Shown here one piece after another: positions 30,246-60,321 of a DNA stretch of 64,000 bases. Where the stretch lies: the NCBI RefSeq assembly GCF_019393635.1, contig NC_057863.1:624645291-624709290 (forward strand), written 5' to 3'. Position 1 is the first letter of the stretch, and each line of letters starts with the position of its first letter. The DNA comes from Dromiciops gliroides. Its lineage: Eukaryota > Chordata > Mammalia > Microbiotheria > Microbiotheriidae. The notes beneath the pieces were generated by a model. That model was not told the origin of the DNA. It saw only the letters and a list, made by a program, of their open reading frames with translations, and searched no databases. A program made the position numbers and the translations under genes.

Positions 30246-30536
30246 CTATGATTCTGGTAGGACTAAATGGTTTCTAAGAATGTGATCATCAGGTACAATA
30301 ATCCCAGGAGACTGGAGAAATGGGCAGTGTTCAAAAGGCAAGTCGCAGCTGTTCCCTTCTTTGCTTGGCCCTGGTGTTTCGTTGTACTCCCAAGGTTCTG
30401 TACTGTCCTGAATCATGAACATTCTTTCCCTTGATGGAGCTGATTCTTCTTGTTCTCTGATCTCCTCCAAAGAGAAATAGATTGACCCATTGGCCTCAGG
30501 GCAGTCAGAGAGCTCTACAGGGTGGGGTGCTTCATC
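30246..30536 (-). CDS. TNFRSF14: TNFRSF14-like last coding exon (cytoplasmic tail)
   Basis: This exon encodes 96 residues from [12 protein letters not shown] to the end, LVLPES and a stop. The acceptor is tattttcctgtttcag. The tail has no death domain. It contains SIYFSLEE (275-282 region), in which SLEE fits the TRAF2-type (P/S/A/T)x(Q/E)E motif and SIYFSL fits an ITIM-like SxYxxL pattern. A second Tyr lies in [10 protein letters not shown] do not find clear similarity to the human HVEM tail. Two SINEs lie just beyond the stop. A minus-strand AATAAA at 29856-29861 is a possible poly(A) signal but lies in L1 sequence. Confidence 0.8.
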   Translation of the reverse strand, partial: DEAPHPVELSDCPEANGSIYFSLEEIREQEESAPSRERMFMIQDSTEPWEYNETPGPSKEGNSCDLPFEHCPFLQSPGIIVPDDHILRNHLVLPES

Positions 30537-30638: not shown

Positions 30639-33600
30639 ATGAGAGAGAGAGACACACACACACACACCACACAACACTTATCCCTTCTATATCATGACTT
30701 TCCTCATCATGGTGTCACTATATTGAGGGTGTCATAAGAAATTAAATGGGAATTTCTGGGGAGTTTTGCAAAAGCTACAGAAAACATGCAAAGGCCAGCA
30801 GATGAAACAAAAAAAAGTTTGAAAACTTGCATAATATATATGTCAAAATATTTTATCCTTTAATACCATAATCATTCAGATTTCTTCTGTGGCATTAAGG
30901 GAAGGCCAAAAATTTTTACATGGCTTTTCCATAGTATGGGGGGCATTGTGCCCCTAAACCCTGTGATATGGAAGGGCTAACTGCATAATCACTCAACCAG
31001 CCCTTACATATCACTGGAGAATTCTGAAACTCAGAAAAAGAAAATGATTTATCCAAGATCAGACAATGACCTTACATACATAAAACACCTCACTTCTGGG
31101 ATTTTCTGCGACTTTTCCCTATCACGGGACCATAGATTTAGAGCAGGAAGGGACCGCAGAGCTCAACTACCCCAACCCACACCTGAGCAAGAATCTTCTT
31201 TCTCAGCTCCCCAATACTCGATTCTCCCCTTCATTTGAGGACATGCAGCCAAGAAGAGCGGGCGACTGTTTCCATTTGACCACAGCTCAAATGCTGACTC
31301 TCTTTGTGACCTGAAGCTTTCATGCTGAACAGAACAAGATGAGTCTTCTAAGAAACAACCTGAAGTCCACTACCATGTGTCCCCTTTACTCCTTGCCTTC
31401 TCCAGGCTAACCATGCCCAGAGCTTTCATTCAGTTCTCATAGGGTAGGAACTTGAGGTCCTTCACCATCCCAGCCACCTTCCTCTTATCAACATCCTTCC
31501 TAAAATGTGGTGTCTGGAATCCTTGTGTTTTTAATGGAAAAGTCTCTCCTCTTTAATGGAAAGATAGGGGCAGCTAGGTGGCACAGGGCAGCTAGGTGGC
31601 GCAGTGGGTAGAGCACCGGCCCTGAAGTCAGGAGTACCTGAGTTCAAATCCAGCCTCAGACACTTAACACTTACTATCTGTGTGACCCTGGGCAAGTCAC
31701 TTAACCCCAATTGCCTCACTAAAAAAAAAAAAAAATTAATGGAAAGATAGATTCAGAAATCCCTAGTCAAGCTGATACTTTCAGGGCTTGTTAGCCTGGA
31801 TCAGAGGTGTGTGGAAGTGATATTCTCAGCTAGAAGATCAAGGTTCCCCCCAGGGCAGAAACATTAGCAGGAAGATGCCAGGTCAATCAAACCAATTGAT
31901 CAGTCCATAAGTCTGGCAAAAGCTACTCACCAGTCTTGCCTCATTGTTAGCTGAAATGCAAAGAAGAGAAGTGTCAGGAAGTAGGATAGAGACATTTTTC
32001 AGACATATAATGAATGGATAAAGAGAATTCCAGACACATCTATGCAGGGTGCAGTTGAATACTTCGCGGTCACCATCTGAATGGTTGCTGTGTGTAAATT
32101 CTAGCTAGTCTGTCTAAAATTCTAATGAGTGGTCGCCAATAAATTAGAAGCTTTAGCAAGAGTTTAGACTTTTAAGCCTTTATTAAAGAGCATTAGGATC
32201 TAATGATCAGAGAGAAAGGTAAAAATCTAACTATTTCTAAGAGACCCCATCATCCGACCTGCCATAGCGAGGTCAGGAACAAAAAAGGACCCAACGCTTC
32301 CATCTTCCTCCCAGAAGCCTCCTGCGAAACCGGGAACCTCATCAGAATGTGAACTCCTTGAGGGCAGGACTAAGGGTTCTTGTACCCCCCAGTATTCAGC
32401 ATGTTCCCTGGCATATTCTGTTGTTGTTTAGTAATTTCTCAGTCGTGCCTAATTTTTTGTGACCCCATTTGGCAGAGATATTGAAGTGGTTTGCTGTTTC
32501 CTTCTCCAGCTCATTTTACAGATGAGGAAATTGAGGCCAACAGGGTGAGTGACTTGCCCAGAGTCACACAGCTAGTAAGTGTCTGTGACTGGATTTGAAC
32601 TCTTGAAGAGTCTTCCTTACTCCAAGCCTGGCACTCTCTCCACTGCTCCACCTAGTTGCCACTTAATACTCTAGGCCTCAGGTTCCTTCTCTGTAAAATG
32701 AATAGATCTAACTGAATGACCTCTCACCCCTTTCCAGCTTAAATCTTTGAGCCTACAACCACACTGTAATCCTATGAAACTAGAAGGGGAGGTGACTTGT
32801 CTGAGGTCCCACAGCCACCAACCCTCAGGATAATGTGCTCACTTCTCAGATTTTCCATCACTTCTACCTATCTGCCCACCCTGAGTAATGCCAGGACAAG
32901 AAGACCCTCAGTTACTCACCAATCATTTGCTGAGCCCTGTTCTATAGGTCTGACCAGAGCCCCTTTGCCCCAGTCCATCCCCTCTCTCCCTACTCCTCAG
33001 TACTTGTGCCCAATTCCCAAGGACAGGGTTCCCATAGTTTTGTGCCATCCAGGCTCAGCCTCAGCAGAGGGCTTGGGTGTTACATAACTTATTTGTATAA
33101 TTGACATCTGGAAGACCCACACCAATCAGGGATATCCCTACTTCTGAACTTGAAATCACCAAAGTAATGACTTTTGAAAACTAGAAGGAATTTCTCAAGT
33201 TTCTGTGGGTTCCATGAGGGCAAAGACTGCATCAATCAATGGGGGAAAACATTTATTATTAAGCACCTACTATATACCAGGAACCATGCTAGGTACTAGA
33301 GAAACAAAGACCAAAAATGGGAGAGCCCTTACCTCTCATTCTAATGTTTTCCTTCCACCCTCCTGACTTAGTCTTTATCTTGTACCTTCAGTCTCCTTCT
33401 CTATGGCTATGCTGAATTCCAACACCCCCAGCAGCCAGTAGGCTCTTTGAAATGGGACCTGTTTTACTGTTGTACAGTGTCGTCCAGAGGAGGAACTTAA
33501 TAAATGTTTACTGAAGTAAATTGAACCTTGCATTTCCCATGGCTCCTGAGGACAATGCTCTGCATATAGTAGACAATTGTTAAATGGTTCTTGATGTAAA

Positions 33601-34336: not shown

Positions 34337-37300
34337 CCTATCAATCCATCTATCTACCTATCTATCTGACATGGGGCTTGAGATATATCAAGGAATTAAG
34401 GGACTATTAAAGTTTAAACTGGCCAACTAGGAGTGTATGATATGATTATGGATTTGAGTCAGATTAAACTCTGAGGATGGGGTCTGGAAGGTACCCAGCC
34501 CTGCCCCAGTATAGTTCGTTTAGACATTTATTGCTTGTCAAATTCTCACTGTCTCCTTTAAGTTTTATTGCCAATTAACAGTATTTTTACTTCTGCTCAG
34601 TCTCCCCACTTGTCAGCTACATATTAGTTTTGTCTGCAATCCATCATGTGTCAGAACCCCAGTCAGTGGGTCAGGGAGTTAGCCCACCAATTCAATACTC
34701 GGGACTCAAGAAGAAAGGACGGGGCTCGGCACAGGATGCAGCATTTGAGTTGGGACCAGATGTTAAGTGACATGTCTCTTTTTCTCAGAGCAGAATCCCC
34801 TTGGCCCTGGGGTCCCAACAATGGATTATTCTTTTCTTCCCAACATAACCGAAGATAAATTTTAACCCTGTCATCCTTCTAGAATTAACATGACTACAGA
34901 ACAATGCTGAAGCACCTGAGTGACTCTTCCTGTTATTCAGGTTGAATATCTTTAGAGACAGGGGCTGGGAGAGGGGAGTCAGTGGGAACTGTGAGATCTG
35001 AAACATCTGACTGTCACTCCCCTGTTTCCTCTTCCTTTGGTTTGACCTTGTTCCCCCTCCCCTTTTCCCCCTTGTTCCTGGAACACATATGCATGTCTCC
35101 ATACATTGATCACCAGCTAAACGCACCCTGGGTGAGACAGGATTGGATGTTAGATTGTGAGCTCGACCTAGTGTGCGTGGGGACTTCCCCTCTGACCGAC
35201 ATTCCTATATAAGGTCAAGGCATATATTAGCTGGCGCGGTTCAGGTATCGAACTTGCCCATTCCTATGGGAATGTAATAAATCTGTCTCTGCTTGACTTG
35301 GTGGTCTCCTCGAGTTATTTGGGTAAACTGAGGCAGTTTGCTCCATACAGGAGGGACACACCTAAGAGATAGGGGAAAACTGAATTCCCTAGCAGGAAAG
35401 TCGGTTGGGCGTGGCTACTGCCTGAGCTGGGAGACAGAGATAACTCCAGAGGTAGAGACTATCTTTTCCCACCCCACCCCCGAGAGGAACTTTCCATGGT
35501 CAGGTGGTCGCCCCCTTCATCCTCTATAAAAGCTTTGGCCTCCCTTTGGGGAGGAGAATATTTCTAAGCCTTCAACTTCTCTCTTGGTCACTTTCTCTAG
35601 TGCCCAAATAAAGAGCAGTTTATTCTAATTGGATTGTGTGCAAAAATTATAATTCTTGAAGAAGGGTAACTAAGGACCCCCCCCACCTAATTCCCCTGTG
35701 ACTCTATGAACTTATCTCTGCTGACAATCATTACCTCCCTTTGAAGAGAGAAATGCTTTCCAAATTTGTTTCATGAAATTGTGGTGATAAGGGATATCAC
35801 TTAGACTTAGCTTTGTGTGAATTTAACAGGTTAGTGATTAGCAGCATTAATATAACTAGGAATTTCTGGGCCTGGTGGCAAGTGCCACAAACTGAACCTG
35901 GGTCAAGCCTCAGTTAAATGGGGCAGGCAGGGGTGGGGGGAGGAGGAGGGAGGAGTGAGAAGGAAGGCTGGGGACAGGGGGAAGCCTTCCTCTGCCTTCC
36001 AGCAGCCTTTTCCCTAGTCACTGAATGAAGGCATGATTGAGGTACTAAGATCTGTTGTTTCTACAATCCCAAAGGATTCCGATTTTGGTCATTAGTGGGC
36101 TTCCACCAGTCTCGGACGACCATGGATCAGCGCCTTGAAGAGCCACAGGCCACCGTGTGGCTGTGCAGTCCGATACGGGAGCCGCAGCTCCTACCGCGAG
36201 GACATTGGAAAACTGCGCTCTCTGTTGCCCGCCGGTTTTTTTTCTTCCTCCTGAGCTTGAAAGCCCATTTTGGTCTGAGCCTTCTAAATGTAATACCCTG
36301 AGGCAAAGTTCCCACCGCCCCATCCTCATTATGTCTTTGCTTACTTCTCTCTTGGTTCTGCCTCCTGCACGGACTTAATGAAGAATGACCCGGACAACAA
36401 ATGCTGCAGATGCCGATGATGATGCCGATGATGCCGATGATGCCGATGATGCCGATGATGCCGATGATGCCGATGATGCCGATGATGCCGATGATGATGA
36501 TAGGTTTTTGTTCAGTATTAGTAGGCAGTGAACACAAAGCATCGGTGGTGTTGGTACCCGGCTTTTCTTCAGATAAACCCTGAGCAATACAACTAGGAAG
36601 ACAAATGAAGACACATGTCATTGGATATCAGCTCAGCAAACCTGAGTGATCCCAGTCCTCCCCCAGGTGCAGTCAGCCATGCAACTCAGCAGCAAAGAAG
36701 CTTAGAGCAAGAGAGACAGAGCACCCCAAACAGAGGAGGTGAAGTAGGGCCAGCAGTGCCTTTATTAACAGTCTGGACAAAGGCAGAGGTGCACACCTCC
36801 CAAGTTCTGAGATAACACAAAAAGCTGGGGGGGAGGGAACCCACATTGGATTGACTAGAAATCCAGTGTGTCCAGAGTCAGCATCCAAAAAGATTTAGAC
36901 AGATTAGAACCATGAGAGAAGGCTGTTTTGTTTTGTTTTTGAGGGGCCCAGAATTGCAGCTTCATCAGTATGGGAAATTCCGTGGTGTAGACATGCCTTC
37001 CCCTACTGCAGGAATTGTCAGGAATGGAGATCCTTGGATAGTTGGCCAGGGCACTTAGAGGGTGGGACCCACCTGTGTAACACAGCTTACTATGTCTAAG
37101 AGACAGAACTGGAGGCTTCCAGACTCCAAGGCAAGCCTTGTATCCCCCACTGCCTAACTTAACAGTAAGGTGGGAATTAATAGGACTGAAATCAACTTCT
37201 TTAAATTGGGCTAAAAAAAGGCAACTCAAAAAAGAACAGAGAGCCAGAGATAGCTAGGTGGTCCAGTGGACATGAGTGGACAGAGTGCTGGACCTAGAAT

Positions 37301-40300
37301 CTATTCATGGGAGTTCAAATCTTGCTTCAGACACGTCTTAGTTGTATGACCCTGAGCAAGTCACTTAATCCCTGTTTGCCTCAGTTTCTCCATCTGTAAA
37401 ATGCGGATAATTATAGCACCCATTTCTCTGTGTGTGTATGAGGATCAGATGAAATCATACCTAGAGAGAGCTGGTGTCGTTGTCGTTGTTGTCGTAACCC
37501 CTGTCTCAATGTCCATTGGTAAGAGACTCTCTCCTTACTGGTGGAGAGGAATCCCTGCCCTTCAGGAGCTGGCTAAGCAGAGTTGGTGGGAGAACTCCAG
37601 CCTTGATCAACCCTCTTCTGGACTCCTCAAGCTTCACCCCTTCTTGGGGGACTGTGAGGAAATGGGTAATGGACTCCTCTCAATAAGGATATAACCATCG
37701 CCATTCAAATTATACTCCTGCTGACCAGTTTGAGGACAAAGGTCTCAGCCCCCCTTCCCTCCCCTCTGGCAAACAGATCACATGGTTCAAGTAGCCCTGA
37801 GTTGGTCTCAAAGAAATCTTCTTCTGGGCTGTGCCCATGTAGGGGAAGATTGAAGAAATGTCCCTGTGTCACCTCCCCCACTGGCTGAGAACCCAAAGAA
37901 TAATTATGGAAATTAGGGTTAGGAATACTGTGTTCTGGTTAGCTAGCTTTCCCCAGGAGATTGTAACCCTTAAGTAATTGGCCAGCAATGAACAAGGGGA
38001 GGGTCTATTTTGAGTTAGGGACTGAGGATTAAAAAGGGGCCTGCTAGCCCTCGCTCTCTGAACTTGCACTTGCTGTCTATAGCACTAGTTCGCAAGTGTC
38101 CATTCTCGCCAGAATGAAAAATAAATGAGCCTTTGACACATCACCTCTAAATTCCAGAGAATTATTGAGCAGAAGTTATTTTCCTCTCAGGGACTCTTCA
38201 AACATCAAATTCCTTCTGGCTTCAGGCTTTAAAAGGGAAGATGGAAGAGGCCAACCCCAATCAGGTAGATGAAGGAAAAGACTCTGGCAAAACATGAGAG
38301 GAGCCAGCAGCTTCCACCATGTCCTCATGCCCAGCTTGCTACACTAGAGGCTTGTGGGAGTTTCCCCTTGGGTGACATCTAGACCTCTCTCTGGGTTGAG
38401 CTGGGTTATCTCACTCCCAATGGGAAAGCTCCTTCCTCTGTATTATCTAGTATAGATTCTCCTATGCATATGCTCTCTGATTTCTCTTTTGGTACAATTT
38501 AGATTAAAGCTTCTTAAACTATGGGTCGCAACCCCATATGGGTCATGTCACTGAGTGTGGGGTGGTGAAAAATTTGGCAGTAATGTTTGATTTCATACCT
38601 ATTTTATATACCAATATACCCAGGGTCACGTAAAAATTTCTTGGGTGAAAAAGGGTCGTGAGTGGGAAAAGTTTAAGAAGCCCTGACTTAGATTATCTCA
38701 CTGGCCAAGAGCAGGTGGGTAGCTCCCATGGCATCTGAACTGAGATTCTCTTGATTCCAAAGCCCTTTCCATGGTACTGGAGTGACCAGGGTTGTATGTG
38801 TGAGGAGCTATGGAAGGATGAAGTCAGAAGGTTATCCGAAGTACTGAAAGGAATGTTAAGTAGAAGAGAAGTAAAGTCATCTTGGCCCCAGAACCTGCAG
38901 TGATGGAGAAAAGTCACAGAAAGGCAGATTTTAGTCCATTTTAAGGGGAAAAAAACCTTAACAATGGGAGCTATTCAACAGAAGGAAGACCAGAAGGAAA
39001 CATAAACAAGCAACACAGTTTGAAAGCTGCAGGCTGAATTTCTTTTATGCCTAAAAGGAAATGCAAACAAGTGTATAGAATAGAGATTCACAGTTTCAGG
39101 TATATTCAGAAGTGTGCTGGCACTAGCCCGAGCTGTGAGCCAGTTGTTAAATTGTTAAACTCATGCTTCAGAAACTGGCAGATACTACAACTTAAGAATT
39201 AGAATTCTTAAAAAAAAGAATTAGAATTCTTGCACACAATCCAATTAGAACAAACTGGCCTTTATTTGTCATTTTGTTGAGTGTCTAGACTTGAGAAAAT
39301 GGCAAAGAAAATATTGATGATGCAGAATAAACTTAAGTGTATGTTTACTTCCCAGGGATCCAGTTGTTAAATACTTACATGCATCCACCCTGTGGACATT
39401 TCTTTCTTTTCTGCTCTGCTTTGTGTATGGGAACATTTTTTTTTATTTGCTGTTCATTAAGGTCAGAATTTTAGTCTAAAACACTATAAATGAACAATCA
39501 CCAAGTCCCAGAGGGTATCTTATACCTACTTGGTCCACAGCACACAGTTCTGAAGGGTTCCATTGGGAGAAAAAGTCCCTGCCGGGCACTCTTCACAGGT
39601 GTTTCTCTCTGTGTCCAAAACAGAAGGAGACATGGCAGATTTGGTGCTCAGCACAACAGTAGGATGAGAACAAAACACAGCTGCTAGAACTGGGTCCCTG
39701 GGTTGGTTGGTCCCTTCCCAGGAAGCTCTGTGTCAGAGCAAAGAGTATTGGGGACACTCTATGATATATATATACTCTCCAGGCCTGTGGTAAGGAATTT
39801 ATTTTTTAAAAATATACTTTGGTTTTGAATCACCTATATTACCCAATGTTTCTTTCCCCTTACTAGTAAATAATTAACAACCAACTCTTTGGGGAAGATA
39901 AAGGAATGTAGGGCATATTTTTAATGTTTCACCAACATTACTAAAATTTTCCCAATTACTTTCTGAAGTCTAAGCAATTAACAAAGCAATAAATTAAGCC
40001 TTGATTTATACCGTTTCCCCATTTCTGAGGTGCCAAAGTTCACACTGAAAATTTAACAATTGGGGGCAGCTAGGTGGCACAGTGGATAAAGCATCGGCCC
40101 TGGATTCAGGAGTTCAAATCTGGTCTCAGATACTTGACACTTACTAGCTGTGTGACCCTGGATAAGTCACTTAACCCTCATTGTCCCACAAAAAAAAGAA
40201 AGAAAGAAAAGAAAAAGAAAATTTAACAATCAGCTCATGGCAAAACAGTTCAGGACCAGGATCCCCCTTATGGCTTTATCTTACCCAGAGAGACATCTGT

Positions 40301-43300: not shown

Positions 43301-46300
43301 AAAAAACAAAAAAAGAGCCTAGACATCATCTTCCAAGAAATAGTCAGGGAAAAATGCCCTAATATTCTAGAACCAGAAGATAAAATAGGAATTGAAAGAA
43401 TCCACCAATCACCTCCTGAAAGGGAACCTAAAAAGAAACTTCCCAGGAATATTATAGCCAAATTTCAGAGCTCCCAGGTCAAGGAGGAAATATTGCAAGG
43501 TGCCAGAAAGAAACAATTCAAGTATTGTGGAGCCACAGTCAAGACAACAGAAGATTTAGCAACTTCTACATTAAAGGATCAGAGGACTTGGAATATGATC
43601 CTTTTGAAGCAAGTTTTTCTGACAAAGGCCTCATTTCTCAAACACATAGAGAACTGATTCAAAGGTGTTAAAATAAGAGCCTTTCCCCAATTGATAAATG
43701 ATCAAAAGATATGAAGAGTTTTCAGATGAAATAATCAAAGCTATCTATAGCCATATGAAAAAACTGCTCTAATTCACTATTGATTAGAGATATGCAAGTC
43801 AAAACAATCCTGGATACTACCTCATACCTGTTGGATTGGATAATAGGACAGCAGAGGAAAATGACAAATGTTGTAGGGGATATGGAGAAAATGAGACATT
43901 GATGCACTGTTGGTGAAGTAGTGAACTTATTCAAACATTCTGTAGAGCAATTTGGAACTATGGCCAAAGGGTTATAAAACCATGCATATTCTTTGACCTA
44001 GTAATACCACTACTAGGTCAGTATCCAAAAAGAAATAAAACCCAAAAAGGTAAAGGACCTATATGTACAAAAAATATTTATGGCAGCCCTTTTCTGGTGC
44101 AAAGAATTGAAAGCCATGATTGAGGAGGTGCCCATCAACTGGGGAATGGCTGAACAAACCGTGGGATGAGATTATGATGTAACACTATTGTTCCATCCAG
44201 CAGGATGACCTCAGAAAAACCTGGAAAGACTTACATGAGCTGATGCAAAGTGAAATGTACTGTATACAAAGTAACAACAATATTGTAAGATGATCATCTC
44301 TGAATGAATTTGCTATTCTCAGCAATGCAATGATCCAAGACAATTCTGAAGGACTTATGAAAAATGTGATCCATCTCCACAGAAAGAACTGAATACAGAT
44401 TGAAGCATATTTTAAAAAAATTTCTTTTTCTTAATTATTTTGGTCTGTTTTCTTTCACAACCTAATGTGGAAATGTTTGCATAACTACACATGTATAACT
44501 TATATTGAATTTTTAAGAGGGGAGTGAATTTGGAACACAGAGTTTGAAAAATGGATGTTAAAATCATTTTTACATGTAATTGGGGGAACATAAAATTCTA
44601 AATAAAACTATTAAAATGAAAAAAATTCCTTTAAAAAGACAAAACAATGATTCAGAGTCATTTTTTGCCACCAAAGGACATTCATTGGAGGATGACCCCA
44701 GTGGGGAGGTCTTGGTTGATTCTTTCCAGCTCTGCCTAATTCTAGATTTGCCCCAGACTGTCTGAAGTCCACGAAGATAAGACAGAGGGCATGAAACCAG
44801 ATTTTATTAACATGAAATCATAAAATTCCAACTATAAGAAACCTCAGAGGTCAGGAAAGGGAGGACCAGAGAGCTCAAGTAACCTCAGGATCACACAGTC
44901 AGTAAGGACAAAGCTGAGTTTTGAACCTAAGTCCTCTGAAACCAAATCCAACCATCTTCCCACTATACCACAGCTGCCTCCAGTAGCCAAAACTGAGGGA
45001 GGACTGGGGATTTCTCAATTTTCCAGTGCAGCAACCTGAAGCAACAATAGTTCTAGGTCCCTGGGGGAGATAGTGATGGAGCAGGCTCACCTCCCAACTT
45101 CAAGTATTCACCAGGGTTGCAGACTAGGTTAGGCACACACTTCTGACAGTCATCATCTTTCATGGCAGCGCAGACATAGCCTGTAGCACAGTTACACACA
45201 GTGTTGGATATAGGTAAACATTCTTTTCTGGTCACGAAGCCGAGCGCTGAAAGAAAAAGCAAGAGGAAGAAGAAGACATTAGTTTAATTAGTCAATAAAT
45301 ATTTACTCAGGGCAGCTAGGTGGAGCAGTGAATAGAGCACTGGCCCTGAAGTCAGGAGTACCTGAGTTCAAATCCGGCCTCAGACACTTGACACTTACTA
45401 GCCGTGTGACCCTGGGCAAGTCACTTAACCCCAATTGCCTCAAACAACAACAACAACAACAACAAAAATATTTACTCACAACCTACTAGGTTCCATGCAC
45501 ACATTACAAAGAAAGTAAAAAGATAGTCCCTGTTTTCAAGGAGCTCATAGTCTAATGGGAGCAATAGCATGCAAACAAGTATGTACAAACAAGGTATGTG
45601 CAGGATAAATTGGAGATCATCAACAGAGGAAGGGCAATAGACTTAGCTTTTTTGTTTTGTTTTTATCTATCTATCTATCTATTTATTTATTTATTTTTGC
45701 AGGGCAATGAGGGTTAAGTGACTTGCCCAGGGGCACACAGCTATTAAGTGTCAAGTGTCTGAGGCCAGATTTGAACTCAGGTCCTCCTGAATCCAGGGCC
45801 GGTGCTTTATCCATTGCAGCGCCACCTAGCTGCCCCTAGCAGCAGCAAAATCTCAAAGGCCTTCTAGTTTGACTCATTTGTAAGCAAGAATGCCTTCTGT
45901 GTCACTCACAACCAAAGGTCACATAGTACTAGGAAAGTTCCAGTGAGGGGGCACCCTGAGGTTGCCCATCCAGCTGTGGGCTCCACTGTTGCCCCAGATC
46001 CTTTATGGCTGAGGGATCCTGGACAGGTCACTCAGGCCACTCTAAGACTATGAGTTGCATATAAGGTGCCCACATTCCTTGATAGGAGTTTTCTTTGCCT
46101 GCCAAGTAAAATCACAGGCCGGGTGTCCCCACCATCACCCCCAAAAAAGAAAAAGAAGCAAAGTACAAAGCACAGTGCTGAGGACAGCTACAAAGGTAGA
46201 ACAGCCAACACTCTACCTACACAGCCTCATACATCATTCTCCCTTAGTGAAGACAGATCTCTATGTGAGCCCCTACCTCGCCAGAGTTCCTCATAAAATA

Positions 46301-49300: not shown

Positions 49301-52300
49301 ACTTTTGACTTCCAAATCTTATCCTTTCTTCCTTTCTCCCCTCACCCCTGCCCAAGGCTGTAAGCAATCAGATATAAATTATACATGTGCAATTATATAA
49401 AACATTGTCATATTAGTCATTTGGTATAAGAAAACTTGAATAAAAGAAACAGAAAATGAAAGAAAGTAAAAAATGACGCGCTTCATTCTGTATTCAATTA
49501 ATATCAGTTCTTTCTTTGGAGGTGGATACGTTTTATCATTAGTTCTTTGGAATTTTCTTGGATCCTTGTATTGCTGAGAATAGAGAAGTCATTCACAATT
49601 TTTCATCAAACAATATTGCTGTCTCTGTGTGCAACGTTCTCCTGGTTCTGCTCACTTCACTATACATCAGTTGATACAAGTCTTTCCAAGCTTTTTTGAA
49701 ATCATCCTGCTTGTCCTTTCTTTTTTTTTTGGGGGGGGGGGGGTTGGTTGTTTTTTTTTTGCGGGGCAATGGGGGTTAAGTGACTTGCCCAGGGTCACAC
49801 AGCTGGTAAGTGTCTAGTGTCTGAGGCCGGATTTGAACCCAGGTCCTCCTGAATCCAGGGCCGGTGCTTTATCCACTGCGCCACCTAGCTGCCCCTGCTT
49901 GTCCTTTCTTATAGCACAATAATATTCCATTACAGTCATGTAACCTCAGGTTGTTTAGTCACTCCCCAATTGATGGGCATTCCTTTGATGTTCAATTCTT
50001 AGCCACCACAAAACGAACTGCTAGAAAAATTTTTGTACAAATAGGTCTTTTTCTCTTTAGGGGGATGTCTTTGGGGTATAAACCCAGCTGTGGTATTGCT
50101 GGATCAAAGGGTATGCACACAAGAACCTCCTTTTTAAACACTCTAGGAAAGGGCACATTAGTAGGCATCCACAATATAGTGTGGATTAATTGCTTAGCAT
50201 AATTCCTCCCTGGCAGGCAACTGAGGGCAGGTGAATCATCCAAAGGAAGCAAAAAGATGGTGAGGTGATTTGAAATGCTAGAACACTGCAGGAGAAGTCA
50301 AGCCTAGCTGGCGGTTATAGGGAGAGGTTTGGGGCAGTCAGGAGGAAACACCTATGGCCAGAGATCAAGTAGGTGTAGATGGGCACATTTAAGGAGCTGG
50401 CAGGGCCCTAGGGACTACCTCAGCCTCTTTCACAGGTTCCTGAGGACCAGCTCTGCTGATGATCCTCTTCAGAATCCTAGACAATTAAAAAATTTTAATT
50501 TAATTTCATTTATTTGGGGGGGCAGGGCAATGAGGGTTAAGTGACTTGCCCAGGGTCACACAGCTAGTAAGGGTCAAGCGTCTGAGGCTGGATTTGAACT
50601 CAGGTCTTCCTGAATCCAGGGCTGGTGCTTTATCCACTGTGCCACCTAGCTGCCCCAGAATCCTAGACATTTTAAGTACTCTGTTCTAAGGTCCCTTCCA
50701 GCTTGGATAGTCTATGTTCTAAGGTTGTATGAGAGAGTATGAATAAACTATCTTGGGGTAGCTAGGTGGCACAGTGGATAGAGCACCGGGCCTGGATTCA
50801 GAAGGACATGAGTTCAAATCTGGCCTCAGACACTTGACACTTTTTTTTTTTTTTGGTGGGGCAATGAGGGGTAAGTGACTTGCCCAGGGTCACACAGCCA
50901 GTAAGTGTCAAATGTCTGAGGCCGGATTTGAACTCAAGTTCTCCTGAATCCAGGGCCGGTGTTTTATCCACTATGCCACCTAGCTGCCCTGACACTTGAC
51001 ACTTACTAGCTGTGTGACCCTGGGCAAGTCATTTAACCCCAATTGCCTCACCAAAAAAACCCAAAAAACAAAACAAAAAAAACCCCTATCTTGGGTTTCC
51101 TAGGTGGGAAATCCCATGCCCCAGAACCTTAGGAACTAACCCAAGCCCATCATGTTGTAGATAGGCAAACTGAGGTCCAAAGAATGGACATGATTTGTCC
51201 AAGGTCACAGAAGGAAAAGTCCTAGATGGAACCCAGGTTTCCCAACACCTAGCAGAGCACTCTCCTGTCTCTCTTCCTAACCTAGTCCAGCTCCTGCTCC
51301 CTGGGTTGTCGACTTCCCCTTACCCCATCTTGTCTGGGTAGGTCCAAGACTGATGACTTTCTCTGGACCCGACTCCCCCTTTTCCAGGGAAACTAGAGGA
51401 CTTGGGTCAGAGCCCAGTGGAGGGTGGACTTTGGGTTAGATCCAGGATCCTGGCTGACCCCAAGGCCCTGAAGAGCTTACCATGGTCACAGACTTTACAC
51501 TGGTGACACTTCTTCAGGACATTCTCCTGTGCTGTGTAGGTCCTGGGATCACAAGGCAAACAGGTGGTGTTTTTTGTTGCACTGCATGGTTCATACACCT
51601 TCTCACCTAATGGTATCAGAGTCAGCATCAAGAACAATGCACAAGATCCCTTCCTGCAGAAGCTCTTCCACTCCAGCCCCCTATCCCCCAGAACCACCCT
51701 GATGCCACCATACACACACCGTAGGCCAGACCCAGGAAGCTACCAAGGCCACCTATGAAACTTAGGATGGTTTACTATGGTTTAGTATAAGAATTAGGAT
51801 GGTGCACATCCACACCCCAAACCATGGAGCCATAGGACCCAGACTGTCTAAACTGCAAGGGACCTCAGAACAAGAACTTAGAACGATGGAATTAAAAGAA
51901 CTCCAGGACAGAGAGTGTCAGAGCTAGGAAGACAACTTCAGAACACAGAATGTTAGAGGTCACCTAGTCCTATCCCCTTGTTTTATAGATAAGAAAACTA
52001 AATCACTGGGCTAAGGTCACACAGGTAGTGAGTGGGAGGGCTAAGAGTCAAATTGGTCCCTAAGATCCCATCCCACAGTGACGGGCACTAAATTTAGGAC
52101 AAGAGACATTCAGCCAATTAGGCCCTATCTGGGAAGTGATGGTCACTGCCATGGGAGGAACTGGGAAAACACAAGGTGGCAGGGGCAGGGGGAGAGTGGA
52201 TTGGTGGGGAGTGAAGGGGAACCAATTCAGAGGCTCTTGTCCAGGTGAGAACTAATAAGACCTTGAACTAGGAAGGAGCTTGTATGGGATCACTTTATGA

Positions 52301-55300
52301 AAGGTGTTGTTGGAGATAACACGGACAGGACTTGGCAACTGATTGAGTAGCTATGGAGCTGGGAGAGTAAGGGAGAGGGAAGAATTGAGGGTGTCTCTAA
52401 GTGAATGGATGTCAAAGATGTCATGGATATGACATCCCCAAATGATGGGATAAGCCCTTGACAGGAATGGGGGATTACGATGAGTTGAGTGGAATGAGTG
52501 CTCTAGATAAAGACAACAGGTCTCTCCAGCAATCAGTACTTGCTGAGTAAGTGTCCTGTGCCCATCTGGCTCTGAAGCCCATGGAGAAGGCAGAGGAAAT
52601 AAGGGATATGCCCTGGGGGACTTCTCTCCTTCCCCCTCTTACCTCAATGACCACCCAGTTGTCCTCCTTCCAACCCAGATAGTCCTGCCCCTTAAAGCCT
52701 TAGATGACCTAACTCTAGAGTTTCCCTGAAAGAGGCATTCCATTAAAGCCTGCTGACTGAATAAATTCATCCTGTCCAACAAGAATAGCTGCCTTATAAG
52801 GTAGTGAGCATTCCATTCCCTAAAGTATTCAAGAAGAGATTCCTATGTTGGGAAAGTGATTGGGCCAGATGCCCCTCCATGGTCCCTATAAGCTCTGAGA
52901 TTCTATTTTTCTGGAATTCAAATGGATACAGGAAGAAAGGAAGAGAGCCTGGAACAGGCAGGCATTTACCAGAGTAAGAGTGATTTGTCCCAGCTCTTTT
53001 ACCTACCTGCAGAACAAGGGGAGCAGCACCGCCCATTCACATCATCCTTTCCGGTCTCACACTCCAGCGCCAACTTGACAGGGATGAAGAGAGTAATCAT
53101 GACACCTGGGGCAAAGAATACAGGAAGTAATGAGGGCACAGGAGAGAACAGGGTCCTGGGTGTCACGGAGGCTGGGCCCTCATCTTTATCCTGTCACTCA
53201 CTGGCTGGACGACCTGGGGACACCCATTTACCCTCTTGGGGCCTCAGTTTCCCCATCCATAAAATGAGAGGGTTGAGAGATGTAATGAATGTAATTACAA
53301 TGCAATGAAGAAAGCACAGGAATGGGAGCCAGAAGACTGCAGTTGGAATCCTGCCCCAGGCGTTTACTAACTATGCTATCCTGGACAAGTAATATAACCT
53401 TTCTTGGTCTCAGTTTCCTTATCTGTAAAATAAGGAGATTGGATTTGAAGGCCTCCAAGATCCCTTCTACCTCTAGACCTGGGGTCCTGTGGTTTAATCC
53501 CTAAAAGAGAGAATTTAACCAGTCTATAACTTCAAAAAGCAGGAACTGGGGAAGACTGGGGAGGAGGAGTAAGGATGGACAGTAGGAGGATGTAGGAGAG
53601 AGGGGCATGGATACAGATATGATAGAATCTTAATCGTGATTAATTCACACTTAATGTAGCACTTTCAAGGTTTCCAAAGAGCTTTGCACACTTATCAATG
53701 GAGTCTTTCCACAACTCTGTGAAGGAGGTTTTACAAGTAGGGAAACCAAGGCTGGAAGTTTCACCCAATAAATGTATGAGAAAGGATTCAAATTCAGGTC
53801 TTCCTGACTCCAGGGACAGGACTCCATGCACTCTGCCCTGCTCCAACTGATATTGTAGGATTGCCTGATCAGAATCAGGTCATAAAGAAGGTACAAGGTA
53901 CCTTCATTCTTTTTTTAAAAATTTTAATTAATAAAGTATTTTATTTTTTCCCATTACATGTAAAGATAGTTTTCAACTTTTGTTTATACAAGCTTTCCAA
54001 TTTCAGATTTTTCTCCCTCCCTCCCCTCCCTCCCCCCCTCCCCTAGACAGCAGGTAATCTGATATAGGTTATATATATATATATAATAACACATAATAAC
54101 ATTAAACATATTTCTGCATTAGTCATGTTATAAGAGAAAAATCAGAGCAATGACAAAAAACCTCAAAATAGAAAAACAACAGCACCAAAAACAAAAGAAA
54201 TAGTACAGTTCATTCAGCATCTATACTCCACAGTTCTTTTTTTTTTCCCTCTGGATTTGGAGATCTTCTTCTATCATGAGTTCCCTGGAACTCTTCTGTA
54301 CCATTGCATTGGTGAGAAGAATATAATCCATCACAGTAGATCAACACTCAATGTTGATGATACTGTGTACAATGTTCTTCTGGTTCTGGTCATCTCACTA
54401 ATCATCAGCCCACGCAAGACCCTCCAGGTTTCTCTGAACTCCTCCTGCTCATCGTTTCTTACAGCACAATAGTATTCCATTGTATTCATATACCACAACT
54501 TGTCCAGCCATTCCCCAATTGATGGGCATCCCCATAACTTCCAATTCCTTGCCACCATGTACAGAGCAGCTATAATTTTTTTTTTTTGGCGGGGCAATGG
54601 GGGTTAAGTGACTTGCCCAGGGTCACACAGCTAGTAAATGTTAAGTGTCTGAGGCTGGATTTTAACTCAGGTACTCCTGAATCCAGGGCCAGCGCTTTAA
54701 CCACTGTGCCATCTAGCTGCCCCCTATAAATATTTTTAAGGTACCTTCATTCTTGAAGAGGACTGTGACATCGGGAGGTGATGTCATGAGATTCACTGAA
54801 TTGGATTTAAGTGAGGCAGGGCTGTGCAAGGTCATCAGCCTCACTCTATCCTCCTGAACATCTGGGTCCAGTGGCAAGATATACATCAGGAAGACTGGAG
54901 ATGGCCCCAGATGCAATGGGAGACCTTGGCCTATTGTCCTCCTCTGTGTTTATGCTTTGATTTTCCCTGTCACCATAGTAACTGTCAATAGTCAAGCTTC
55001 TTCCCATTTTTTTTTTTGGTTTGGTTTGGTTTTGGGGTTTTTTTTGCTATTTTTGTGCCCTGATATTTTTATTTGAGTTGGGCTCTCTTCCTAAACTGTT
55101 CCAGGGTTTGTGCTGAGGCTCTGAGTCTTAATGGTGGTTTTCACTGGGCTTCAGGGCTTAGCTGCTTACTTTCTGGTGTTGCTAAGTTAACAAAGTCAGG
55201 AGCCAAGATGGCGGAGAATAGCCAGCATGTTGCTTGAGCTCTCCTTCTGTTCCCTCAAAAAGAACATTAAATCAAGCCTCTGGACGGATTCTGAAACTAC

Positions 55301-59798: not shown

Positions 59799-60260
59799 AG
59801 GCAGGGCTTCACTACTCGTCAGCAGTGGGGTCAAAGCCTCCCTGGTGGTCTGTGCTAGCTGTGGGGTGCCTGGTGAGGGTCCCTGCCATGCTGCCCAGAC
59901 TGCTCACCTGCCCAGGGAGCTGCTGGTTTGCAGGTGGGTGGGGCCTCAGAGCCCCACTTCACGCCCCTGCTTCTACTGCTCCTGGACCTCACCTCCCTCT
60001 CCCCCAGGTAAGACAGACTTTTTCTGCGGGCTGGTAGGTTGTTTCCCTGCTCCTGGGACGATTCAGATGTAGGTTTGGAGGAGAAATCTGGGAGAGTTTC
60101 AGTGGATTGCTTCCTCCCTCTGCCGTTTTGGCACAGGAAGTAGCAGCAAGAAGTAATCTCAGGGTGGGGGCCGGAGGACAGGCAATCCCTGTCCAGCTGC
60201 CCCCAGTTTTGGATTCTTACCAACAAGGAGATTCTGATTCCCATCTCTGTCGATCGCCAT
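30246..60260 (-). CDS. TNFRSF14: TNFRSF14 (HVEM)-like TNF receptor, whole gene of eight coding exons
   Basis: This is a type I membrane receptor of the TNFR superfamily. Joining 60260-60221, 53105-53007, 51606-51481, 45246-45091, 39608-39530, 36592-36345, 31950-31931 and 30536-30246 gives 1,059 bases, or 352 residues. All introns are gt/ag and phases agree. The order is signal peptide, CRD1-CRD4 with 6, 6, 6 and 4 cysteines (to about residue 187), transmembrane segment (198-233) and a 119-residue tail. The best family match is [19 protein letters not shown] against human [15 protein letters not shown], and [19 protein letters not shown] against TYIAHLNGLSKCLQCQMCD. HVEM binds LIGHT, BTLA and CD160. 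No death domain is present. CD40 or 4-1BB are weaker matches. The tail is about twice the human length and does not resemble it, so a paralogue is possible. The tandem-repeat transmembrane segment is the odd feature. Confidence 0.82.
30612..30668. repeat. (TG)n-(GA)n-(CA)n compound microsatellite
   Basis: TG and CA arms can pair with each other. It lies about 75 bases upstream of the exon 8 acceptor on the gene strand. Confidence 0.9.
30690..31560. other. No further exon seen (receptor intron 7)
   Basis: Mostly unique-looking text with an MIR-like trace near 31100-31190. Confidence 0.4.
31567..31735 (+). repeat. WSINE1-type CORE-SINE with a doubled head
   Basis: The first 20 or so bases (ggcagctaggtggcaca) are repeated in tandem. 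Flanked by aatggaaagata. Subfamily B. Confidence 0.92.
31931..31950 (-). CDS. TNFRSF14: TNFRSF14-like coding exon 7 (20-base microexon)
   Basis: This exon completes Thr250 and encodes NNEARL. It is bounded by ttctctttgcatttcag and gtgagt, both strong sites. Its phase (2 in, 0 out) fits its neighbours. Human HVEM also has a short exon just after its transmembrane exon, as far as I recall. Confidence 0.8.
32060..32345 (-). mobile_element. LTR fragment, reverse, endogenous retrovirus fossil
   Basis: Shares ataaattagaagctttagca and the tttattaaag region with the LTR at 26747-27495. A partial fossil. Confidence 0.5.
32418..32662 (-). repeat. MAR1-type SINE, reverse
   Basis: RTE-like tail (gtcgtgcctaattttttgtg, gaccccatttgg), then CORE and head. 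Confidence 0.75.
32665..33225. other. No exon seen (receptor intron 6)
   Basis: Unique-looking text; no supported feature. Confidence 0.4.
33225..33345 (-). repeat. MIR3-like SINE relic
   Basis: It has aagcacctactatataccag and agagcccttacctctcattc. Confidence 0.5.
33755..33975. repeat. (ATCC/ATCT)n tetranucleotide tract
   Basis: About 220 bases of imperfect tatc/catc units, likely unstable. Confidence 0.85.
33985..34275 (+). mobile_element. LTR-like fragment, endogenous retrovirus fossil
   Basis: Has a promoter-like gaggataaaacccttggcct and a pyrimidine-rich region, and lies between two tetranucleotide tracts. Family not identified. Confidence 0.4.
34279..34370. repeat. (TATC)n microsatellite
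   Basis: A near-perfect tetranucleotide array. Confidence 0.93.
34375..34980. other. No exon seen; possible LTR flank
   Basis: Receptor intron 6. The content leads into the LTRs that follow; no coding motif seen. Confidence 0.35.
34985..35335 (+). mobile_element. Solo LTR, endogenous retrovirus fossil
   Basis: It carries a TATA-like tatataaggtc region and a polyadenylation region (gaatgtaataaatctg) near 35270. A fossil with no internal region seen. Confidence 0.5.
35336..35660 (+). mobile_element. Second LTR, endogenous retrovirus fossil
   Basis: It has ctctataaaagctttggcct and caaataaagagcagtttatt. Its 3' end (attggattgtgtgcaa) recurs reversed at 39195-39265. Confidence 0.55.
36090..36240. 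other. CpG-rich unclassified segment next to exon 6
   Basis: A CpG-dense 150-base stretch (ccagtctcggacgaccatgg, gtgcagtccgatacgggagc) in receptor intron 6, 100 bases beyond the exon 6 donor. Possibly a repeat fossil; the short open frame has no known domain. Confidence 0.35.
36345..36592 (-). CDS. TNFRSF14: TNFRSF14-like coding exon 6: end of CRD4, stalk and repeat-built transmembrane segment
   Basis: This exon begins one base before [20 protein letters not shown], which completes CRD4 in the standard WTxC...GTxxxDxxC form. A short stalk ([10 protein letters not shown]) follows. The transmembrane segment then starts at residue 198 and is encoded by an ATC ATC GGC tandem repeat, giving four Ile and then Gly-Ile-Ile units, 31 residues in all. 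CSICC (229-233) follows, with cysteines that could be palmitoylated, and then [16 protein letters not shown]. The donor is AGAGAA|gtaagc. Incoming and outgoing phases (2 and 1) match exons 5 and 7. The open frame continues past the donor into the intron, but that part is not needed. Confidence 0.85.
36409..36501 (+). repeat. 9-base tandem repeat (gatgatgcc) inside receptor exon 6
   Basis: These are about ten units of gatgatgcc on the plus strand, read as ATC ATC GGC on the coding minus strand. It is 93 bases (31 codons) and almost perfect, with slight unit changes only at the two edges. Because the unit is three codons, length changes stay in frame. It forms the bulk of the transmembrane segment. 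Confidence 0.95.
36600..37240. other. No exon seen (receptor intron 5)
   Basis: Unique-looking text; open frames have no recognised motif. Confidence 0.4.
37248..37465 (+). repeat. MIR-like CORE-SINE
   Basis: It has tagctaggtggtccagtgga, then cctcagtttctccatctgta. Confidence 0.65.
37700..38175 (+). mobile_element. LTR, endogenous retrovirus fossil
   Basis: The end reads cgccagaatgaaaaataaat, then a ctaaattccagagaattatt. Start approximate. No internal region seen. Confidence 0.45.
38507..38687. mobile_element. hAT-type nonautonomous DNA transposon
   Basis: 181 bases with inverted ends (cttcttaaactatgggtcgc at the left; gggtcgtgagtg to gtttaagaag at the right). It is flanked by exact 8-base duplications ttagatta at 38499-38506 and 38688-38695. 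An 8-base duplication is the hAT hallmark. Not coding. Confidence 0.85.
38700..39190. other. No exon seen (receptor intron 5)
   Basis: Unique-looking; nothing supported. Confidence 0.4.
39192..39275 (-). mobile_element. LTR end fragment, endogenous retrovirus fossil
   Basis: The reverse complement matches the last part of the LTR at 35336-35660 (attggattgtgtgcaa). Confidence 0.5.
39530..39608 (-). CDS. TNFRSF14: TNFRSF14-like coding exon 5 (start of CRD4)
   Basis: This exon encodes [20 protein letters not shown] then NCVLWT and two bases of Asn. The run [12 protein letters not shown] is nearly identical to human HVEM and is the best single identifier of this gene. NGT is a potential N-glycosylation site. 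The acceptor follows tctccttctgttttggacacag. The donor (AA|gtaggt) is not ideal but is fixed by phase and by the Cys pattern of exon 6. Confidence 0.88.
39610..40060. other. No further exon seen (receptor intron 4)
   Basis: AT-rich and unique-looking upstream of exon 5. Confidence 0.4.
40062..40216 (+). repeat. WSINE1-type CORE-SINE
   Basis: Flanked by gaaaatttaacaat. Subfamily A, some CORE bases missing. Confidence 0.93.
40436..40666 (+). repeat. MIR-like CORE-SINE
   Basis: Head ccactaggtggctcagtgga, then gtgtcaggcacatagtagtg tail. Confidence 0.7.
40670..41325. other. No gene seen
   Basis: An MIR-like trace near 40740-40800; otherwise nothing supported. Confidence 0.35.
41330..41870 (+). 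mobile_element. Decayed L1 3' end
   Basis: Traces of gatggtcaaaggat, ctcataccc.tcagattgac and ggcaaatgctgga, in the order of the ORF2 C-terminus. Heavily diverged. An (ACAT)n run lies at 41660-41705. Confidence 0.65.
41880..42030 (-). repeat. WSINE1-type CORE-SINE, reverse
   Basis: Flanked by taaattc. Subfamily B. Confidence 0.92.
42268..42413 (+). repeat. WSINE1-type CORE-SINE
   Basis: Inserted at the start of the L1 that follows; flanked by tattcgggggg-type text. Confidence 0.92.
42415..44640 (+). mobile_element. HAL1-like L1: 5' region and ORF1 joined straight to the ORF2 C-terminal end
   Basis: 5' text like an L1 UTR (gagcccagatggtggaggaa), then ORF1 pieces ([20 protein letters not shown] near 43075-43135, and more to 43600). 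At about 43610 it passes directly to the ORF2 end (DKGLIS region). The endonuclease and reverse transcriptase are absent, as in HAL1 elements or an internally deleted L1. Confidence 0.75.
43151..43303 (+). repeat. WSINE1-type CORE-SINE inside L1 ORF1
   Basis: Flanked by aaaaaaagagccta on both sides. Confidence 0.95.
44645..45090. other. No further exon seen (receptor intron 4)
   Basis: A reverse MIR-like trace lies at 44830-44985. Confidence 0.4.
45091..45246 (-). CDS. TNFRSF14: TNFRSF14-like coding exon 4 (end of CRD2, CRD3)
   Basis: This exon starts with two bases that complete Ala and reads [18 protein letters not shown], then [16 protein letters not shown] and [18 protein letters not shown]. 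The acceptor has a long pyrimidine tract ending tttctttcag, and the donor is gtgagc. CRD3 keeps the C-x4-C...C-x2-C...C pattern of HVEM and 4-1BB. Confidence 0.92.
45310..45466 (+). repeat. WSINE1-type CORE-SINE
   Basis: Flanked by aatatttactca; the tail is (CAA)n. It lies 60 bases upstream of receptor exon 4 on the gene strand. Confidence 0.93.
45470..45625 (-). repeat. MIR3-like SINE relic
   Basis: It has ttcaaggagctcatagtcta and gtatgtgcaggataaattgg. Confidence 0.55.
45694..45836 (-). repeat. WSINE1-type CORE-SINE, reverse
   Basis: Preceded by a (TATC/TTTA)n run at 45664-45693. Subfamily A. Confidence 0.92.
45840..46285. other. No gene seen
   Basis: Receptor intron 3; nothing supported. 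Confidence 0.4.
46290..47540 (-). mobile_element. Non-L1 LINE reverse-transcriptase fragment, reverse
   Basis: The minus strand reads [20 protein letters not shown], then [20 protein letters not shown], typical of the RT C-terminal half in an RTE/CR1-like LINE. It is the same family as 21125-21830 and 25183-25690. A SINE is inserted. Confidence 0.8.
47171..47320 (+). repeat. WSINE1-type CORE-SINE inside the LINE
   Basis: Flanked by gaaattgatgtatg. Subfamily B. Confidence 0.95.
47525..47737 (-). repeat. MIR-like CORE-SINE, reverse
   Basis: It has gtaccaagcactgtgctaag, then attatctcatttgatctaca. Confidence 0.7.
47740..48180. other. No exon seen (receptor intron 3)
   Basis: A LINE-like tail (gtaggtacttaatgaatatt) lies at 48032-48052, followed by an MIR trace. 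Confidence 0.4.
48188..48340 (+). repeat. WSINE1-type CORE-SINE
   Basis: Flanked by gaaaaccttttca. Its head is subfamily A and its tail (caattgcctcacc) is B-like. Confidence 0.94.
48399..48545 (+). repeat. WSINE1-type CORE-SINE
   Basis: Flanked by aaaagggatgtgtctg. Subfamily B. Sixty bases from the previous copy. Confidence 0.94.
48550..49110. other. No exon seen (receptor intron 3)
   Basis: An MIR-like trace at 48590-48745; a GC-rich patch at 48760-48990. Confidence 0.4.
49113..49254 (-). repeat. WSINE1-type CORE-SINE, reverse
   Basis: Flanked by cttttaattctt/ccttaattctt. Confidence 0.92.
49262..50170 (-). mobile_element. L1 3' end, reverse
   Basis: The minus strand reads [20 protein letters not shown] and the L1 3' UTR. 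A SINE is inserted. Confidence 0.88.
49721..49895 (-). repeat. WSINE1-type CORE-SINE, reverse, inside L1
   Basis: Flanked by ctgcttgtcctttctt. The tail includes an unusual G/T-rich run. Confidence 0.94.
50516..50656 (-). repeat. WSINE1-type CORE-SINE, reverse
   Basis: Flanked by cagaatcctagaca-type copies. Confidence 0.92.
50754..51085 (+). repeat. WSINE1-type CORE-SINE split by another copy
   Basis: The outer, forward copy. The reverse copy at 50841-50989 is inserted in its CORE. Confidence 0.94.
50841..50989 (-). repeat. WSINE1-type CORE-SINE nested in reverse
   Basis: Flanked by the duplication tgacact/tgacacttgacac within the outer copy. Gives a long inverted repeat inside receptor intron 3. 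Confidence 0.95.
51090..51480. other. No further exon seen (receptor intron 3)
   Basis: An MIR-like trace at 51110-51260; otherwise unique-looking. Confidence 0.4.
51481..51606 (-). CDS. TNFRSF14: TNFRSF14-like coding exon 3 (CRD1 to CRD2)
   Basis: This exon encodes the end of CRD1 ([15 protein letters not shown]) and most of CRD2 ([18 protein letters not shown], then HQCKVCDH). NTT is a potential N-glycosylation site. The acceptor is gataccattag and the donor gtaag. The A1 and B1/B2-type cysteine spacing matches HVEM and CD40, with HVEM closer in the TYxAxxNxLxKCxQCxxCD stretch. Confidence 0.92.
51610..53006. other. No further exon seen (receptor intron 2)
   Basis: A repeat-poor block of about 1.4 kb with weak MIR traces near 51940-52040. 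Confidence 0.4.
53007..53105 (-). CDS. TNFRSF14: TNFRSF14-like coding exon 2 (signal core, first half of CRD1)
   Basis: This exon runs from [15 protein letters not shown] to CCSPCSAG. It corresponds to human HVEM from LVLYLTFL to CCPKCSPG, with the paired cysteines at the same spacing. The acceptor is ttctttgccccag and the donor gtaggt. It ends after one base of a Gly codon. Confidence 0.88.
53300..53475 (+). repeat. MIR-like relic
   Basis: It has gaatgggagccagaagactg, then cagtttccttatctgtaaaa. Confidence 0.6.
53640..53835 (-). repeat. MIR-like relic, reverse
   Basis: It has gtagggaaaccaaggctgga and caggtcttcctgactccagg. Confidence 0.55.
53908..54735 (-). mobile_element. L1 3' end, reverse
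   Basis: The minus strand reads [20 protein letters not shown] and [19 protein letters not shown]. The 3' UTR lies at 53930-54240, with an (AT)n run at 54069-54084. Confidence 0.88.
54576..54723 (-). repeat. WSINE1-type CORE-SINE, reverse, inside L1
   Basis: Flanked by ctataa on both sides. Confidence 0.92.
54752..54935 (+). repeat. Unclassified repeat shared with 17165-17333
   Basis: It reads gaggactgtgacatcgggag to gactggagatggccccagat. See 17165-17333. Confidence 0.6.
55947..56090 (+). repeat. WSINE1-type CORE-SINE inside L1 ORF1
   Basis: Flanked by aaatcaattgag. Subfamily B. Confidence 0.95.
56103..56256 (+). repeat. WSINE1-type CORE-SINE inside L1 ORF1
   Basis: Back-to-back with the previous copy at the same target (aaatcaattgag on three sides). 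Subfamily A. Confidence 0.95.
56603..56752 (+). repeat. WSINE1-type CORE-SINE inside L1 ORF1
   Basis: Flanked by gagaatcattggactg/gagaataattggactg. Confidence 0.94.
57000..57147 (-). repeat. WSINE1-type CORE-SINE, reverse, inside L1 ORF1
   Basis: Flanked by cagaaagaagcaattt. Confidence 0.95.
59472..59620 (+). repeat. WSINE1-type CORE-SINE inside L1 ORF2
   Basis: Flanked by aaaagttaagtctt, close to where the L1 breaks off. Subfamily B. Confidence 0.95.
59640..60220. other. Unique GC-rich intron 1 start
   Basis: No other exon is supported. An open frame of 177 codons on the minus strand (60388-59855) crosses exon 1 but has no recognised domain. Confidence 0.4.
59756..59797. repeat. (GT)n microsatellite
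   Basis: About 21 GT units in receptor intron 1. Confidence 0.95.
60221..60260 (-). CDS. TNFRSF14: TNFRSF14-like coding exon 1 (signal peptide start)
   Basis: The ATG at 60258-60260 opens [13 protein letters not shown] plus one base, followed by the strong donor gtaaga. The phase fits exon 2, and together they give the hydrophobic core [13 protein letters not shown] just ahead of CRD1. Of the start codons nearby, only this one reads into the CRDs in frame. Its context has G at -3 and G at +4. The n-region carries no net positive charge, which is unusual for a signal peptide, so transcript evidence matters here. Confidence 0.6.
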
Positions 60261-60321
60261 ATCCCCAGCACCGGAGAAGGTGACGCCTGGAGCAGCACGC
60301 CCGCAGCAACAGCAGCAGCAT
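60222..60321 (-). promoter_or_regulatory. Upstream ATG and overlapping uORF in receptor exon 1
   Basis: An ATG at 60319-60321 (A at -3) opens MLLLLLRACCSRRHLL in a frame different from the receptor start 61 bases downstream. After the exon 1-2 splice it would run to a TGA in exon 2, 49 residues in all. It overlaps the main start and could reduce receptor translation, if the transcript starts upstream of it. Confidence 0.45.

Follow-up and report, generated by a model that had tools for sequence, protein, structure and literature searches.

Does a nine-base tandem repeat encode the membrane span of a receptor of the TNF receptor family, and does that span differ in length between individuals? 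The question is raised by a locus of the monito del monte, Dromiciops gliroides, a small South American marsupial. The stretch of DNA analysed here (the window, 64,000 nucleotides of contig NC_057863.1, hereafter C3) carries on its minus strand a TNFRSF14-like gene whose reading frame is open across eight exons. In several TNF receptors it is the membrane helix that determines how trimers and larger assemblies pack, and a helix that changes by a fixed three-residue unit would provide a natural length series for the effects of span length and glycine placement on signalling. Our main point of comparison is P0001, the NCBI D. gliroides TNFRSF14-like isoform X2 (366 amino acids), which matches the window's exons apart from five repeat units and which we take to share the same chromosome record and assembly.

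The array lies at positions 36501-36409 on the minus strand and comprises 31 codons of ATC and GGC repeats, 22 ATC (Ile) and nine GGC (Gly). A previous reading of the window, made from the letters alone and called here the sequence-only reading, had given the same codon and residue counts, and the letters confirm them. The perfect core consists of 79 bases of GATGATGCC on the plus strand (36418-36496), ATC ATC GGC on the coding strand, and is described by TRF as period 9, 8.8 copies, 100% match and score 158. Each 9-base unit encodes Ile-Ile-Gly, in agreement with the earlier claim of in-frame three-residue units, and the locus thus holds, as MICA does, an in-frame tandem repeat inside a membrane-span exon. 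No other perfect period-9 run in the window reaches 27 bases, leaving aside runs whose unit is itself a repeated triplet or single base. Of 100 sequences of 64 kb simulated with a first-order Markov model, none had a period-9 run longer than 22 bases (mean 17.1), whereas that of the window extends over 79. An exact search of the 3,303,199,800-base assembly with the three-unit 27-mer returned six overlapping placements, all in the array, and no match elsewhere (reversed pattern as control, 0 matches), which rules out a satellite occurring at other sites in the genome.

All exons lie on the minus strand. Exon 1 (60225..60351; MRHRRRR...SP) is as in P0001, with 43/43 residues identical in a tblastn match over 60351-60223, its 3' edge, judged from codon phase, being probably at 60225. 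No clear signal peptide is present in the annotated first exon of P0001, itself atypical, and a convincing first exon of the paralogue type was looked for in the window gene and not found; it is doubtful that exon 1 encodes a signal peptide. Exon 2 (53007..53105; AG/GTAGGT edges) encodes the end of the leader and the first cysteine-rich domain and matches P0001, exon 3 (51481..51606; AG/GTAAGC) covers cysteine-rich domains 1-2 with 42/42 residues equal to P0001, and exon 4 (45091..45246; AG/GTGAGC) covers domains 2-3 and also matches. Most of cysteine-rich domain 4 is encoded by exon 5 (39530..39608; AG/GTAGGT), which ends in phase 2 and has 26/26 residues in common with P0001. Elsewhere in the window, at 55934-56233, TRF finds a 156-base SINE-like unit doubled in tandem (92% match).

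Exon 6 (36345..36592, 248 nt; AG/GTAAGC) encodes the last conserved cysteines, the juxtamembrane segment, the repeat-encoded membrane span and the start of the tail, and differs from P0001 only by a 45-nt gap. It is preceded by tcttcctag and followed by gtaagc, with entry phase 2 and exit phase 1, so that the splice sites and phases fit as previously proposed; the order of cysteines followed by membrane span is likewise borne out by the exon structure and the match to P0001. Exon 7 (31931..31950, 20 nt; TNNEARL) reads CTAACAATGAGGCAAGACTG between ttgcatttcag and gtgagt, and its residues are present in P0001. Exon 8 (30246..30536), with 96/96 residues equal to P0001, encodes the cytoplasmic tail, including SLEEI, and the stop codon. 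Splice edges were checked at both AG and GT for exons 2-7 and at the acceptor for exon 8; exons 2-6 combine consistent phases with AG acceptors and GT donors. The intron phases agree with those of the human TNFRSF14 gene.

The assignment to an HVEM-like type I receptor, also made in the sequence-only reading, is supported on three sides. The cysteine-rich domains, which retain the framework cysteines, score 54.7 bits against PF00020 (cut-off 29.4); all 42 PDB sequence matches at E<=0.001 are TNF receptors by name and include ELR1 and HVEM; and Foldseek matches the predicted fold of P0001 to CD40 and HVEM. The AlphaFold2 model behind that search has a mean pLDDT of 65.3 and a pTM of 0.41, with 10-residue blocks over residues 61-190 at 79-97. 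A scan of NCBIfam for the window receptor gave nothing of use. The SLEEI of the tail aligns with PVQET in the tails of P0006, P0008, P0010 and P0015. SLEE fits the TRAF-binding consensus, (P/S/A/T)x(Q/E)E, and PVQET has the letters of the CD40 TRAF motif; the SLEE in the tail of the window gene looks TRAF-motif-like. We consider it fairly likely that the product is a marsupial receptor, TNFRSF14-like but divergent, and that its membrane helix derives from an in-frame 9-base tandem array.

In both forms, the apolar run and a predicted helix indicate a single membrane span after the cysteine-rich domains. By hydropathy, the apolar run has 36 residues in the genome form of the window and 21 in P0001. 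AlphaFold2 predicts one helix at residues 224-246 of P0001 and, for the window's exon 6, modelled as a lone sequence with no alignment, a single helix running without a break over residues 29-65 of 82 (mean pLDDT 70.5). Measured against the usual 20-26 residues cited in the sequence-only reading, the genome's 36-residue span is longer than usual, whereas the 21 residues of the annotated form are ordinary. In an ideal helix, glycines spaced i, i+3 turn by -60 degrees per step. By this calculation, the glycines of the long form spiral round all faces of the helix, whereas the four glycines of the short form lie on one face, within 120 degrees. Only one canonical GxxxG (GIIIG) occurs in each form. 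The idea of pairing through 'GxxG at every turn' thus keeps some ground in the short form, where the four glycines share a face, and loses it in the 36-residue form, which spreads them round; with spiralling glycines and a single true GxxxG, a glycine zipper at every turn is rejected.

A first protein search returned 15 proteins, and a profile search 62, including those 15, of which 51 were read. In a 38-row tree with midpoint root, the 33 marsupial rows fall into a single clade that excludes the five eutherian TNFRSF14 sequences, both forks being supported at 100/100, and the window gene sits among the Dromiciops copies, which makes it, as far as the tree can indicate, at best a TNFRSF14-like co-orthologue. 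Inside a Dromiciops group (91/97) it joins P0002, P0018 and P0021 (88/87, a fork not starred as firm by the tree program); the window row branches long there, with the longest end branch of the tree (0.84). A tree of flanking DNA (intron and juxtamembrane flanks) from five copies, without P0018 and L063, paired the window with P0002 in only 8% of 500 resamplings. Among these five copies the flanking intron is 82-87% identical (13-17% divergence), and the span aligns poorly (41-78%, with many gaps).

A genome search for exon 6 gave 12 matches, ten of them TNFRSF14-like exon-6 copies on C3, counting that of the window, and two of them simple repeats; with L063, added from the degenerate-pattern search described below, there are at least 11 copies. 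Many TNFRSF14-like copies are clustered at C3:636453615-637137392, about 12 Mb from the window gene. Within this cluster, three copies of exons 3 and 4, spaced by about 15.3 kb, have identical match scores and look like recent tandem duplicates. One exon-6 copy, L047/L040 (C3:637067071-637067226), carries stop codons and a SINE-like insertion just past the membrane span. A locus on another contig, L018 on C4, was considered as a retrocopy of the window gene and rejected, as its sequence looks like that of TNFRSF21. In the Antechinus flavipes protein P0031, an N-terminus that looks like a PRXL2B-type redox protein is fused to TNFRSF14-like domains; the model is probably a read-through of neighbouring genes, a hint that gene order is conserved.

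Related nine-base units were found in exon 6 of three other Dromiciops copies, as one decayed array (P0002) and two cases with two units. DNA periodicity was scored in six of the 11 exon-6 copies, as a joint lag 9/18/27 score against 10,000 codon shuffles. None of the 10,000 shuffles reached the scores of the window and P0002 exons; values were weaker for P0006 (p = 0.011), P0003 (0.055), P0018 (0.088; lag 9 alone 0.018) and L047 (0.19). The P0006, P0003 and L047 exons have a signal at lag 3 too (p = 0.001-0.007), so a period of nine is not singled out in them. In the P0002 exon, TRF reports period 36 (score 93) and period 9 (score 31). Two exact ATCATTGCC units are present in each of L042, the exon of P0018, and its sister copy L063. 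Genome-wide, a two-unit degenerate pattern has 16 matches, seven in the window array, two in other TNFRSF14-like exons and seven elsewhere, and the reversed control also gives seven; this is near chance, and therefore only the presence of the pattern in the two exons is used as evidence. In L063 (C3:636515439), the frame is broken at the repeat stretch of the membrane span, and one frame shares HIKYKSTYPSFPSSSLPSLPSF with P0021, from which we take L063 to be the exon of P0021. NCBI marks P0021 as LOW QUALITY.

Outside Dromiciops, P0040 of the dunnart Sminthopsis crassicaudata has at the position of the span a terminal stretch of 82 residues, mostly Ile, Gly, Cys and Ser. In the 38-row tree P0040 pairs with P0034, away from Dromiciops, and its array seems independent of the Dromiciops arrays. 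At the protein level, periodicity (shuffles, p < 0.01) was found in two of 25 spans of the marsupial set (the window and P0040) and in one of nine eutherian spans; the P0002 span had none (p = 0.82) and P0001 reached only 0.03. With so few periodic spans, arrays are not general in the family, and the spans of most relatives are without them.

Span composition was compared between 32 marsupial proteins plus the window form and nine eutherian proteins, from which the window form and five marsupial proteins with a best 21-residue hydropathy <=1.6 were dropped. The mean Ile fraction of the span was 0.40 in the remaining 27 marsupial proteins, P0001 among them, and 0.17 in the nine eutherian ones (P = 0.001), and span entropy was slightly lower in the marsupial set (P = 0.044); what is counted here is proteins rather than independent genes or species, and the set includes P0029 and P0042, with an identical span, and P0031, with a stretch that looks frame-shifted. 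The array is thus not an isolated oddity: relatives' spans are on average rich in Ile and some have related or seemingly independent arrays, but most lack them.

The evidence on length variation comes from P0001, which is without exactly 45 nt, or five units, of the array (KPIIIIG(IIG)2, against KPIIIIG(IIG)7 in the genome). When every multiple-of-three gap up to 117 nt was tried, 35 placements of the 45-nt gap fitted within 36418..36496 on the minus strand, and none had GT-AG, GC-AG or AT-AC ends; two further matches at a gap of 117 nt are trivial prefix matches. Splicing is thereby rejected as the origin of the shorter form, and the gap therefore probably reflects RNA from a shorter allele with five fewer units, which would presumably be why the annotation pipeline made it. 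A search for isoform X1 returned P0001 alone. The proposal that array length varies between individuals thus gains a first sign, a model five units shorter, although this sets one genome against one annotated model; on that comparison, the helix may vary in length in D. gliroides.

The same gap could be an artefact over a real array of fixed length: reverse transcriptase may have switched template, or PCR slipped, from one direct repeat to another, and the product been taken for a short intron. Jumps of this kind are favoured by direct repeats, and the 35 placements devoid of splice signals would be expected on this account as well. It is unlikely in our view, considering that a single product exactly five units shorter was kept as the model and that it yields a standard 21-residue span. 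It is even less probable that the array is over-counted in the assembly and really comprises 3.8 units, for a span of 21 residues. The one annotated protein seen is of the shorter form, with a span of ordinary length, but long sequencing reads far exceed 79 bases, the size of the array. The array units are, moreover, identical, and the exon would remain a repeat-encoded span. Short introns predicted in repetitive DNA have been met before: in PMC5435141, they amount to 27.8% of its predicted short introns and are set aside as likely genomic deletions rather than as laboratory artefacts.

A further alternative concerns the gene rather than the gap, namely that it is decaying, that the array is neutral filler in a receptor past selection and that the long form may not insert properly. 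Against the Dromiciops paralogues, dN/dS is 0.74-1.26 for exon 3 (five comparisons) and 0.46-0.89 for exon 4 (seven comparisons), values from short exons with large error; taken with the longest end branch, they suggest that the gene is evolving fast and that constraint on it is weak. Ratios near 1 in exon 3, that branch and the weak leader all fit decay, as do the stops or broken frames in or near the span of P0003, L047, L044 and L063. However, the frame of the window gene has stayed open over eight exons with checked AG/GT edges despite 13-17% divergence in the flanking intron, and the framework cysteines and the TRAF-motif-like SLEE are retained. We regard decay as rather unlikely, though the strongest of these three alternatives, and prefer a receptor with a repeat-encoded span and a shorter allele behind P0001.

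On that preferred reading, exon 6 would already have been rich in Ile codons (ATC/ATT) before the array, and an ATC-ATY-GSC unit would have arisen in the ancestor of the Dromiciops subgroup. Replication slippage would then have expanded the unit in the window gene, while it decayed or stayed short in the sister copies. Changes by whole Ile-Ile-Gly units would preserve both frame and greasiness and would be tolerated. The allele presumed to lie behind P0001 would have a 21-residue span, glycines on one face and one GxxxG, and the genome allele a 36-residue span with glycines on every face; given these differences, helix length, tilt and glycine-mediated packing may differ between alleles. The locus may record how a membrane span arose out of a tandem repeat, and the genome also contains decayed and short sister copies for comparison. 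More tentatively, and with the chances somewhat against it, the Ile-codon-rich span exon of marsupial TNFRSF14-like genes could be a repeat nursery, where short in-frame arrays, such as the nine-base units of the Dromiciops subgroup and the Ile/Gly/Cys/Ser repeats of the dunnart, recurrently arise, expand, become length-polymorphic and decay into ordinary-looking spans, which would make helix length and glycine packing fast-evolving and possibly allelic controls on receptor output.

Several known systems resemble parts of this picture. The gene shares with TNFRSF14/HVEM the layout of the cysteine-rich domains as well as sequence and fold matches, but the marsupial copies form their own clade, have Ile-rich spans and carry SLEE or PVQET in their tails, and the span of the window gene has 36 or 21 residues. 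In the account given in PMC7591462, DR5 dimerises via GXXXG, TNFR2 and OX40 also contain GXXXG, and TNFR1 trimers need a mid-helix Gly. These helices are alike in that small residues permit close packing, and one GxxxG occurs in Dromiciops; by analogy, Gly/GxxxG packing may have a function in the Dromiciops receptor. They differ in that the Dromiciops glycines recur at every third residue and stem from a tandem array. CLEC4M likewise combines a coding tandem repeat, length polymorphism and an immune receptor, but its VNTR is described as lying in the extracellular neck, not the membrane span (PMC3261175). Among the open-literature papers listed for marsupial TNFRSF14 and for repeat-encoded spans we found no like report, many subscription papers lying outside that scope, and the available part of PMC7859260 does not mention HVEM.

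The closest precedent is MICA, where the GCT (Ala) repeat of exon 5, in the membrane span, varies between 4 and 10 Ala (Mizuki 1997, summarised in PMC5326783) and, in A5.1, the frame is lost through insertion of one base into the repeat. In both cases an immune surface protein has an in-frame coding tandem repeat in the exon for its membrane span. In MICA the unit has three bases and encodes Ala, and variation in its number has been seen in populations, whereas in Dromiciops a 9-base Ile-Ile-Gly unit fills the span and variation is seen between one genome and one annotated model. The sequence-only reading knew of no described case in this family; coding repeats in membrane spans as such are not new. 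With the MICA precedent, the kind of phenomenon is already known; what is new is a 9-base unit making the whole span, the receptor family and the sister copies at different stages. If the polymorphism is real, what is known from MICA would be carried over to a family of signalling receptors and to a repeat unit filling the entire span.
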